NCBI GenBank assembly: GCA_014650475.1
Contig: BMVA01000022.1
Coordinates: forward strand, 1-64,000
DNA length: 64,000 bases
Direction: 5' to 3'
From: Streptomyces albogriseolus
GTDB taxonomy: Bacteria; Actinomycetota; Actinomycetes; Streptomycetales; Streptomycetaceae
The notes beneath the pieces are model-generated. The model did not search any database, had not been told where the DNA came from, and saw nothing but the letters and a program-made list of their open reading frames with translations. Every line of letters starts with the position of its first letter. Within the stretch, counting starts at the first letter, position 1. A program made the position numbers and the translations under genes. Shown piece after piece: positions 44,269 to 48,330 of this stretch.

Positions 44269-44775
44269 CTACCCCTGCTTCGCCCGGTAGCGGCGCATCT
44301 TCTCGCGGGCCCCGCACACCTGCATCGAGCACCAGCGGCCGCGTCCGCCGGGGCTGCGGTCGTAGTAGGCCCAGTGGCAGGCCGGGGACTCGCACGCCTT
44401 GAGGCGCTGCCAGGTGCCGGCCGTGACCGCCTCGGCGACGGCGGCGGCGACCCGGGAGAGCAGCGGCCCCTCGTCGACCGGCGCGAGGGCGGCGGAGCCG
44501 TCGGCGGGGTCGACCGTGACCACCAGGGGCGCGCGGGCGAGCAGCTCGCCGAGCGGGACGACCGGGCGGTGGGCGGGGTGTCCGGCGTGCGCGAGCAGGG
44601 TGGCCCGCAGCGACTCGCGCAGCGCGCGGGCGTCCTCGACGGCGTCCTCGGTGAGCCCGAAGGGCGCGCGGCCCTCGGGGGTGTCCAGCGCGTCGGCGCC
44701 GGTGGCGAGGTCCACCGTGTTGACGAGGTCGTGGACCAGGGTCAGCCGCCCGGGCGGGGCCGCTCTCTCGCTCAT
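44269..44775 (-). CDS. CGNR zinc-finger / ABATE-domain regulator
   Basis: 168 residues. The N-terminal ABATE-type helical domain (about 12-115, DLVNTVDLATG... DARALRESLRATLLAH) probably senses a ligand. The C-terminal CGNR zinc finger is CESPACHWAYYDRSPGGRGRW followed by CGARxKMRRYR, with four Cys and a basic helix. Such proteins are predicted transcription factors. Its gene is divergent from two VOC genes, and the 109-base gap carries four GGTAAC/GTTACC half-sites, so autoregulation plus control of the VOC genes is likely (inference). Confidence 0.84.
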   Translation of the reverse strand: MSERAAPPGRLTLVHDLVNTVDLATGADALDTPEGRAPFGLTEDAVEDARALRESLRATLLAHAGHPAHRPVVPLGELLARAPLVVTVDPADGSAALAPVDEGPLLSRVAAAVAEAVTAGTWQRLKACESPACHWAYYDRSPGGRGRWCSMQVCGAREKMRRYRAKQG

Positions 44776-44884: not shown

Positions 44885-45244
44885 ATGTCCGTAGCGAAGG
44901 TGGGCTCCGTCGTCCTGGACTGTCCGGACCCGCACGCGCTGGCCGGTTTCTACGCCGGCGTCGTGGGCGGCACGCCGGAGGGCGAGGGCGACTGGGTGGA
45001 CCTCGCGGTGCCCGGCGGTCCGACGCTGGCCTTCCAGCGGGCCGAGGGCCACGTCCCGCCGCGGTGGCCCGCGGCCGACCGCTCCCAGCAGTTCCACCTC
45101 GACCTGACCGTCGAGGACCTGGACGCGGCCGAGAAGGAGGTCCTGGCGCTGGGCGGGGAGCCGCTGGACACGGAGGACCGCTCGCGCGGCTTCCGGGTTT
45201 ACGCGGATCCGGCCGGGCACCCGTTCTGCCTGTGCGCCTGCTGA
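44885..45244 (+). CDS. VOC-family protein 1 (glyoxalase/bleomycin-resistance fold)
   Basis: 119 residues, one VOC module pair (SVVLDCPDPHALAGFYAGVVGG, then FHLDLTVEDLDAAEKEVLALGG, ending VYADPAGHPFCLC). The fold usually binds a divalent metal with His/Glu residues; here FQRAEGH, FHLDL and the His before PFCLC are candidates. The family includes glyoxalase-I-like lyases, dioxygenases and antibiotic-binding proteins; the substrate here is unknown. ATG behind a strong AGGAGG, next to the last operator half-site. Confidence 0.82.
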   Translation: MSVAKVGSVVLDCPDPHALAGFYAGVVGGTPEGEGDWVDLAVPGGPTLAFQRAEGHVPPRWPAADRSQQFHLDLTVEDLDAAEKEVLALGGEPLDTEDRSRGFRVYADPAGHPFCLCAC

Positions 45245-45280
45245 GATCCCCCGAGAGCCCGCTGAGACATGGAGGAACCG

Positions 45281-45673
45281 ATGGCCCCCGTGGCACGACT
45301 GCGCAGTGTCGTCCTGGACTGCCCCGACCCGAGTGAGCTGGCGGTCTTCTACGCGGCCGTCGCCGGCGGCACGCCCGTGGCGGAGGACGACGACTGGGTG
45401 GTCCTCCAGGTCCCCTCGGGCCCCCGCCTGGCCTTCCAGCGGGCCCCCGGCCTCACCCCGCCGGCCTGGCCGAGCGCCGACCACGACTCCCAGCAGTTCC
45501 ATCTCGACTTCGACGCGGGCGGCACATGGGAGGAGGTCGACGCGGCGGAGGCGAAGGTCCTGGCGCTTGGGGCGCGCGTCCTGGACCGCGAGGACTACGA
45601 GAAGAAGGACTTCCGCGTCTACGCCGATCCGGCGGGGCATCCCTTCTGCCTGTGCCGCATCGAGCAGCCCTAG
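45281..45673 (+). CDS. VOC-family protein 2
   Basis: 130 residues from the ATG at 45281, because GGAGGAACCG precedes it; the ATG at 45269 is within this ribosome site. It is a paralogue of VOC 1 (same SVVLDCPDPSELAVFYAAVAGG and YADPAGHPFCLC blocks), 36 bases downstream in the same transcript. It probably arose by tandem duplication and may act on a related compound or form a heteromer. Confidence 0.8.
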   Translation: MAPVARLRSVVLDCPDPSELAVFYAAVAGGTPVAEDDDWVVLQVPSGPRLAFQRAPGLTPPAWPSADHDSQQFHLDFDAGGTWEEVDAAEAKVLALGARVLDREDYEKKDFRVYADPAGHPFCLCRIEQP

Positions 45674-45883: not shown

Positions 45884-47011
45884 TTAGCCGTCGAGGGCGC
45901 CGATCGTCGCCGTCGACGGCTTGCGGCGTTGTCGGGCCGTGTGGGCCGTGAAGGCGGTGGCGCGCAGGACGCGTTGGACGTTGCCCCAGGTCAGAAGGGC
46001 TACGTCGGACTCGTCCCAGCCGCGGCGGAGGAGCTCCGCGATCAGGAGGGGGTAGCAGGACGGGTCGCTCAGTTCCTGCGGGTGCGCGCCGCCCGTGTCG
46101 TACGTGCCGGACAGGCCCACGGACTCGGGGCCGGCGACGGTGCGGACGTGGTCGAGGTGGTCGGCGACGTCGCGGACGGTCGGTCCGGCCTGTTCGGCGG
46201 TGAGCGGCACCAGGCACAGCCCCTTCGCCTCGCCCACCGCGGCGAGCAGGTCGTCGGGCAGGTTGGCCGGGTGCGGGCGCAGATCGCGTGCGCCGGACCG
46301 GGTGAACAGCACCGGCGCCTTGGAGACCACGAGCGCCCTGCGGATCGTGGGGGCGGAGGCGTAGGAGAGGTCGGCGACCATGCCGAGCCGGTTCATCTCG
46401 CGGACGACCTCCTCGCCGAACCGGGTGAGCCCGGCCGGGCCCGCCCAGGAGGTGCCGGTGAGGGTGAGCACCCGGACGCCGAGGGCGTGCAGGGACCGCA
46501 GGACGCTCAGGGAGTCGCCGAGGGCGGGCGCGCCGGCGGGACCGAAGAGCACGGCGACCCGGCCGCAGTTGCGGGCGTCGACGACCTCTCCCGCGGTGCG
46601 GGCGGGCCGCAGCCCCGCGTCGTGGGCGGCGACGACCCCCTGCGCCAGGTCCAGCTGCTCCAGGGTCGTGGCGAGCGCCCGGTCGCCGTCGTAGCCGTCC
46701 GGCAGGTGCAGCGACCAGAACACGGCGCCGACCTGCCCCTTGCGCAGCCGCGGCAGGTCCGCGTCGACGGCGCTCTCCCCCAGGTCGAGGTCGTACCAGG
46801 GCAGTCCGCGCAGCGTCCACGGCAGACCGCTGTAGCCGTCGCAGACGGGGTGGGCGGCGAGGACGGCCCGCGCGCGGTCGAGGGGGGCGTCGTCCGGGTC
46901 GGAGACGGGCCGGTACTCCTCCGGTCCGACGACCACCGCCTCCTGCGGGTACGGCTCGTCGGCACGGCCCACCTCGGCGGCGGTATGCAGATCGTCCTGG
47001 AGATCGGCCAT
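45884..47011 (-). CDS. M19 dipeptidase-like pseudoenzyme
   Basis: 375 residues, clearly homologous to the adjacent M19 dipeptidase over its TIM-barrel, but all six metal-centre residues are changed: HxD to Y60/G62 (CDGYSGLPW), Glu to A159, the two later His to Y217 and R238, Asp to T303. A 30-residue N-terminal extension precedes the domain and a segment of roughly 45 residues around the intact enzyme's MVTFVPKF region is shortened. It cannot hydrolyse peptides by the family mechanism. The frame is intact and coding-like, so it is a protein with a new role (binding, regulation or partner of the active enzyme), not a decayed gene. Confidence 0.85.
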   Translation of the reverse strand: MADLQDDLHTAAEVGRADEPYPQEAVVVGPEEYRPVSDPDDAPLDRARAVLAAHPVCDGYSGLPWTLRGLPWYDLDLGESAVDADLPRLRKGQVGAVFWSLHLPDGYDGDRALATTLEQLDLAQGVVAAHDAGLRPARTAGEVVDARNCGRVAVLFGPAGAPALGDSLSVLRSLHALGVRVLTLTGTSWAGPAGLTRFGEEVVREMNRLGMVADLSYASAPTIRRALVVSKAPVLFTRSGARDLRPHPANLPDDLLAAVGEAKGLCLVPLTAEQAGPTVRDVADHLDHVRTVAGPESVGLSGTYDTGGAHPQELSDPSCYPLLIAELLRRGWDESDVALLTWGNVQRVLRATAFTAHTARQRRKPSTATIGALDG

Positions 47012-47133
47012 AACGGGGCTCCGTACGTCGTGACCTCGGGCGGTACGGCCACGGTCGCACGGAGCACCCGCGGACTTCCTGGTGAACGCGGCGTTCGGGG
47101 TAAGGACGGGCCGCCCCGCGCCGCGTCCGCCGG

Positions 47134-48330
47134 TCAGCCGTCCAGCGCCTCGACGGTGGCGTGGGACGGCGCGCGCGTGGCCCGCAGGTCACGGGCCACG
47201 TCCTCGGCGTCGCCCAGCACCCGCACCGCGTTCTGCCAGGTCAGCTTGGCCAGGTCGGCGCGGGACCAGCCGCGGTCCAGCAGCTCGGCGATCAGCCGGG
47301 GGTAGCCGGAGACGTCGTCCAGGCCGTCGGGGGTGAAGGCCGTGCCGTCGTAGTCGCCGCCGATACCGAGGTGGTCGATCCCGGCGACCTCGCGCATGTG
47401 GTCGAGGTGGTCGGCGACCGTGGCCACCGTGGCGACGGGCCGCGGGTGGGTCTCCTCGAAGGCGCGGTGCAGCGTCATCGCCTCGGGGCTGGTGTCGAGG
47501 TGGTGGAAGCCGTGCGCGCGCAGGTTCTCGTCGGCGGCCGCCGTCCAGTCGACGGCGGCCTGGAGCACGAACTTCGGCACGAACGTCACCATCGCGACGC
47601 CGCCGTTGGCGGGCAGCCGCTCCAGCACGTCGTCGGGGATGTTGCGCGGGTGGTCGCAGACCGCGCGGGCCGAGGAGTGGGAGAAGATCACCGGCGCCGT
47701 GCTGGTGTCCAGCGCGTCCCGCATGGTCGTGGCGGCGACGTGGGAGAGGTCGACCAGCATGCCGAGCCGGTTCATCTCCCGCACCACCTCGCGGCCGAAC
47801 GCCGACAGTCCCCCCACGCCGGGCTCGTCGGTCGCCGAATCGGCCCACGCCACGTTGAAGTTGTGGGTGAGGGTCAGATAGCGCACCCCGAGGTCGTACA
47901 ACCCCCGCAGCGTGCCGAGGGAGTTGGCGATGGAGTGGCCGCCCTCCGCCCCCATGAGGGAAGCGATACGGCCCTCGCGGCGCGCGGCCTCCATGTCGGC
48001 GGCGGTCAGCGCGGGCGCCAGGTCCCGCGGGTGCCGGTCCAGCAACCGCCGTACGCAGTCGATCTGTTCCAGCGTGGCCGGCACCGGGTCGGGGGCGTCG
48101 GCGCGGACGTACACCGACCAGAACTGCGCGCCCACGCCGCCGGCGCGCAGCCGGGGGATGTCGGTGTGCAGATGGGCGGACTGGTCGGCGGCGATGTCGC
48201 GGGCGTCGAGGTCGTAGGAGACCTGTTCGCGCAGTGCCCACGGCAGGTCGTTGTGCCCGTCGACGACGGGGAACTCGGCGAGCAGCGCGCGGGCGTCGTC
48301 CAGGGTGCTCATGCCGGCCGCCCCGCTCAC
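47134..48330 (-). CDS. membrane dipeptidase-family enzyme (M19), intact metal site
   Basis: 398 residues from the GTG at 48330, which overlaps the purE stop by four bases; an ATG at 48312 would drop six residues. The binuclear zinc ligands are present: H26 and D28 (VDGHNDLPW), E129 (MGAEGGHS), H197 (VDLSH), H218 (FSHSSAR) and D326 (GGDYDG). M19 enzymes cleave dipeptides, often with a D-residue at the C-terminal side. No signal peptide, so it is cytosolic. Co-translated with purE; the functional link to purine synthesis is unclear. Followed 122 bases downstream by its pseudoenzyme paralogue. Confidence 0.92.

Follow-up and report, generated by a model that had tools for sequence, protein, structure and literature searches.

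We consider it likely that gene A of the analysed window, a 64,000-nucleotide stretch of Streptomyces albogriseolus DNA (contig BMVA01000022.1), encodes a metal-free pseudo-dipeptidase of stable fold, which descends from the duplication of a Sco3058-type enzyme and has been kept for a non-catalytic job, presumably one of binding. The reading frame and its translation run on the minus strand from an ATG at 47011 to a stop at 45884, and the product matches the Pfam profile Peptidase_M19 with 281 bits (cut-off 26). The profile was matched by all 42 rows of a 42-sequence alignment, among them the product of the neighboring gene B, which scores 391 bits against the same cut-off. In a Pfam domain search, no DNA-binding or signalling domain was found in A. 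Gene B aligns over its full length with Sco3058 (3id7; E 3.4e-222) and carries all six M19 metal ligands (His, Asp, Glu, His, His, Asp); among 77 aligned B proteins, one truncated row is gapped at three of them. The start of B coincides with the end of a reading frame containing purE, and gene A begins 122 nt beyond gene B on the same (minus) strand. The parts of both genes and the sites discussed below are collected in Table 1.

Table 1. Coordinates in the window of genes A and B, of the parts and former metal-site residues of A, and of the promoter-like blocks
Feature	Position	Strand	Basis
Gene A, metal-free M19 paralogue, 375 aa	45884..47011	-	profile match, alignment, structure model
Conserved N-terminal tail of A, residues 1-18 (MADLQDDLH...EVG), predicted disordered	46958..47011	-	
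Variable linker of A, residues 19-44	46880..46957	-	
M19 barrel of A, residues 45-375	45887..46879	-	profile and predicted model
Y60 of A, replacing ligand H26 of B	46832..46834	-	alignment
G62 of A, replacing ligand D28 of B	46826..46828	-	alignment
A159 of A, replacing bridging ligand E129 of B	46535..46537	-	alignment
Y217 of A, replacing ligand H197 of B	46361..46363	-	alignment
R238 of A, replacing ligand H218 of B	46298..46300	-	alignment
T303 of A, replacing ligand D326 of B	46103..46105	-	alignment
Promoter-like block 2 (CCGTGCGACCGTGG) upstream of A	47049..47062	-	
Promoter-like block 1 (CCCGAACG) upstream of A	47092..47099	-	
Gene B, intact M19 dipeptidase, Sco3058 orthologue	47134..48330	-	alignment, profile

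The host genome measures 8.07 Mb and contains a third, weak M19 match elsewhere. Among the best 80 of 512 confirmed relatives, the nearest named A orthologues are those of S. althioticus and S. griseoincarnatus, at 97%. The S. coelicolor orthologue is presumably the gene named SCO3057, and a search of the open-access literature for that name returned no match. In addition, two tandem proteins with a Glyoxalase_6 domain (window 44885-45244 and 45269-45673, plus strand) face gene A, and a CGNR zinc-finger/ABATE protein (window 44269-44775, minus strand) recurs with a cover of at least 90% in 70 of the loci of the 80 best relatives.

The six ligand replacements in A had been listed in an earlier note on this DNA, and aligning 81 A proteins with 77 B proteins showed both the residues and their numbering to be exact, with none of the six ligands present in the window's A. 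The structure model of A, based on 42 aligned sequences, has a mean pLDDT of 90.3 and exceeds 90 for 301 of the 375 residues; its best structural match is Sco3058 (TM 0.85, 40% identity). The N-terminal extension, which had been put at 30 residues, amounts to about 40 relative to Sco3058, given that A44 aligns with Sco3058 residue 4. Furthermore, the loop that carries H156 in B is shortened in A, every one of the 81 aligned A proteins having a gap there, and a long stretch of Sco3058 at about residues 245-294 is shorter in A in the pairwise alignment.

The family-wide counts refer to 140 distinct intact A proteins, namely that of the window, those of 80 loci and those of 59 loci from genome searches. 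The 80-locus set leans to close relatives because the best 80 of 512 confirmed relatives were kept, and the further loci were picked to add distant ones; many more A matches from the genome searches lie outside the 140. Loci were removed as duplicates (L092-L095, with the same genes as L067, L079, L082 and L073, and L084, which equals the window), as other M19 proteins (L120, L096, L099), as broken (L121) or because only B was seen (L125).

Among these 140 proteins, none of the six ligands is retained in 105, one in 24 and two in 11, and hence the ligand-intact orthologue that the earlier note would have taken as contrary evidence does not occur in the compared set. D28, E129 and D326 (numbering of B) are lost in every protein, and the residues that took their places differ across A subclades: Gly, Thr and others at the position of D28, Ala or Val at that of E129, and Thr, Gly, Met, Ala or Ser, with others rare, at that of D326. 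The histidines are retained here and there (H26 in 21 proteins, H197 in 6 and H218 in 19). As judged from these alignments, no member of the family among the 140 would be able to hold the binuclear metal site of M19 enzymes. The only candidate for an intact A from outside Streptomyces (G153, locus L120) was rejected: it has the complete set of ligands, obtains its higher score with B and is not part of the A clade on the tree. As for Y217, the corresponding position is Gly in 121 of the 140 proteins, His in six relatives of 83-89% identity to the window's A and Cys in one, so that Tyr appears to be a local state reached by later drift and not a family-wide one. A separate deep A subclade (L136, L138, L119, L124, L112 and L134), at 46-53% to the window's A and to B alike, was seen to carry Trp, Arg, Gly or Tyr at this position.

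In a tree of 88 rows, comprising 49 A proteins and 39 other M19 rows, the A proteins make up one side of a branch with an SH-aLRT support of 100. This clade groups with Streptomycetaceae enzymes (support 93), the branching order there being open. Every non-A row that has a residue at a ligand position retains the ligand in question. It appears that A arose by duplication of a Sco3058-type enzyme. D28, E129 and D326 are lost in all 49 A rows and changed only once each on this tree, which indicates that the three carboxylates were lost together on the stem. H26 changed 8 times, H197 3 times and H218 7 times, and the histidine ligands seem to have been lost, and now and then regained, after the loss on the stem. 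The idea of the earlier note that the six replacements form one selected set is therefore not borne out in this form: the carboxylates went once and the histidines repeatedly. Among the 81 closer A proteins, however, G62, A159 and R238 are invariant.

In this closer set T303 is present in 79 proteins, and 110 of the 375 positions are invariant overall. Across the 140 rows, however, the six former ligand positions lie between the 39th and 83rd percentile of barrel variability; they are as variable as the ordinary barrel, which counts against family-wide selection for a new pocket chemistry. The same observation weighs on the reading of A as a sensor or buffer whose former active site holds a dipeptide or some other small carboxylate ligand. 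The residues fixed among the closer 81 would suit such a role, and so would R242 of A, the counterpart of the B residue R222, which we take to be substrate-binding in the dipeptidase; this position is Arg in 96 of the 140 members. On the other hand, it is Ala in 30 of them, the catalytic loop bearing H156 has been deleted and a DNA-binding or signalling domain is absent, and we thus regard a small-ligand sensor as unlikely. A different kind of catalysis, metal-independent or with other residues, would find candidates in the new invariant charged residues of the closer set, e.g., R238, R245 and H310. These residues differ by subclade, though, with His, Asn, Gln, Ser, Cys or Gly replacing R238 in 34 of the 140 proteins, and this reading is very improbable.

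The rates of substitution were also compared. Median dN/dS values (2850 pairs, 76 genomes) were 0.361 and 0.211 for A and B, respectively, and under neutrality about 9 stops would be expected in A by 0.4 changes per site (P ~1e-4). Among the A loci that were fetched, L121 (G290) is the single broken one and contains stops. Internal stops that had been flagged in some divergent fetched copies were found to be the genes' own ends, with the exception of L121. In the lineage of L121, A is being lost. The earlier note had proposed that A is non-catalytic and maintained by selection, and had named relaxed rates and frameshifts as signs of the opposite; an intact and conserved gene with a dN/dS well under 1, a vanished metal site and a single broken copy agree with its proposal. 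It could be argued that A is merely decaying after loss of function, given that it evolves faster than B, is patchily present and has one broken copy among the fetched loci. We consider this extremely improbable and reject it because of the open frames of 140 intact members, the dN/dS values and the deep ligand loss shared on the stem.

Regarding distribution, A was matched in 56 of 121 sampled Streptomyces genomes (E <= 1e-64) and had no match in the other 65, while B was matched in 120 of the 121 (E <= 1e-150); the genome without B is also without A, and all 56 carriers of A have B as well. Since about half of the sampled Streptomyces retain A, the protein has probably taken on a new, non-enzymatic role. 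At the same time, its faster evolution relative to B and its absence from 65 of the 121 genomes indicate that it is dispensable at the genus level. A family-level sample (150 genomes, 17 genera) yielded 22 genomes that match A at E <= 1e-59, namely 21 Streptomyces and G153, whose match is an active-type enzyme and not A. An order-level sample (293 genomes, 9 genera) yielded 152 genomes that match the A query, all of them Streptomyces, although at least one of these matches (G443) is B alone. Outside Streptomyces, 20 genomes from the family's other genera were searched; an M19 match to B was present in 18, and none of the 20 had a second close M19 match. An A protein labelled Kitasatospora aureofaciens (L049) sits among the Streptomyces A proteins on the tree, and the label may be old.

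The N-terminal tail is another feature in which A differs from Sco3058. Residues 1-29 of the model have a pLDDT below 50 and are predicted to be disordered. Residues 1-4 nevertheless rank between the 15th and 24th percentile of variability over all positions of the 140 rows, while the linker that follows the tail is hypervariable, mostly above the 90th percentile in the same rows. A start of the type MA[DE]L was found in 79 of the 80 loci drawn as the best 80 of 512 confirmed relatives and in all 24 other loci, 20 of which read MADLQ; the tail starts were picked by a script as the start codon nearest the expected place. In 10 of the 140 trimmed frames MA[DE]L is not shown, in some of them owing to the trimming. 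The synonymous third bases of the tail codons vary, and thus the constraint acts on the protein. In the host genome, the coding pattern for MADLQ(D/E) has a single occurrence, at A.

In 122 of 136 loci the two genes share a strand and A follows B; B is missing from the fetched stretch in 12 and is on the opposite strand in 2. The gap between the two genes ranges from 113 to 3125 nt and exceeds 1 kb in 25 of 76 loci, and in the genomes of L067, L073, L079 and L082 B is located on a different contig from A. This range of gaps and the lost linkage argue against a common operon for the two genes. Opposite-strand genes, differing per lineage, are found between B and A in L027, L045 and L083, and by eye they are lipoprotein-like, response-regulator-like and oxidoreductase-like.

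Upstream of A, the sequence CCGTG(C/T)(G/C)ACGGTG is usually found 42-69 nt before the start, and block 1 precedes it. At least 11 of 14 consensus matches were reached in 90 of 93 upstream regions vs. 4.4% of shuffles, with a consensus fitted to the same sequences, and in 10 of 12 divergent loci, the exceptions being L116 and L118. Blocks 1 and 2 together occur in the genome only before A. A shared regulon via block 2 was also considered and set aside, as the three other matches to block 2 in the genome look chance-like by eye. The conserved upstream element, combined with a changing distance between B and A, suggests that A has its own promoter and that it is transcribed apart from B from this putative promoter. 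PMC4125116 gives TGnnCCGnnCGGGTGA as the target site of BldM-WhiI at Group II promoters. At A promoters this motif reached a mean best score of 9.03 of 12 vs. 8.42 in shuffled sequences, the best match in the window does not fall on block 1, and block 1 resembles the site reported in PMC4125116 only weakly. Taken across the A family, the predicted fold, a MADL-type, presumably disordered tail on a variable linker and the putative upstream element appear to be fixed.

We infer from these features that A would work as a binding protein and not as an enzyme. The disordered MADLQ(D/E) tail could serve as a short docking peptide and the M19 barrel as a platform, and a mixed A-B oligomer is our leading guess for the partner. 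In that case A would be a subunit or regulator of B, with the mixed oligomer tuning how stable the active dipeptidase is, which substrates it accepts or where it is placed. A and B are paralogues with the same fold, in most loci A comes directly after B in the same orientation, every A carrier in the sample of 121 genomes has B, and the A and B distances correlate at 0.60-0.61. However, B is near-universal and its co-presence with A thus tells us little, more than half of the sampled Streptomyces genomes have no A match and linkage has been lost in some lineages. Moreover, the partial correlation between A and B is 0.36, whereas B and the unrelated UDP-glucose dehydrogenase give 0.43. The first partial correlations (0.51 and 0.56, vs. 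purK and purE) had pointed to co-evolution of A and B, which was no longer distinctive with more control genes. B as the partner is therefore a possible but tentative assignment. A more elaborate version, according to which the family docks via its tail, has its own, possibly developmental promoter and tunes the Sco3058-type dipeptidase or the turnover of cell-wall dipeptides in the course of the life cycle, appears doubtful to us.

The A clade is deep, intact and bacterial, all its carboxylate ligands are gone, and it has a fixed N-terminal peptide and upstream element; it may thus offer a clean test case. It belongs to a genetically tractable genus, in which active and inactive sisters are found in one genome and many natural genomes have B without A. 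Our findings also carry a warning for annotation, as A-type proteins match the Pfam 'Membrane dipeptidase' well above the cut-off despite their lost metal site.

Like pseudoenzymes in general, or non-peptidase homologues in MEROPS usage, A has lost its ligands while its fold is conserved and under purifying selection, and it has an active paralogue alongside. A pseudoenzyme next to its active paralogue is a known theme; we found no description of a bacterial M19 pseudoenzyme clade of the A type in the open-access literature, and as far as our searches show the A clade is new within M19. The fold of A is shared with Sco3058, the renal-type dipeptidase of Streptomyces coelicolor (PDB 3id7, 3itc and 3s2j), which possesses the ligands missing in A, whereas A has the tail of about 40 residues and the two shorter loops. 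Human DPEP3 is not known to have dipeptidase activity. It is likewise an M19 paralogue with altered ligands (PDB 6vgo; structural match TM 0.81, 38% identity). In the alignment DPEP3 has a Tyr (DLSYAS) at the same His position as Y217 of A and an Asn in place of the last Asp. Because most of the A family has Gly at the former position, the shared Tyr is parallel and not inherited. DPEP3 retains the remaining ligand motifs in the alignment, whereas the A protein of the window has lost all six.
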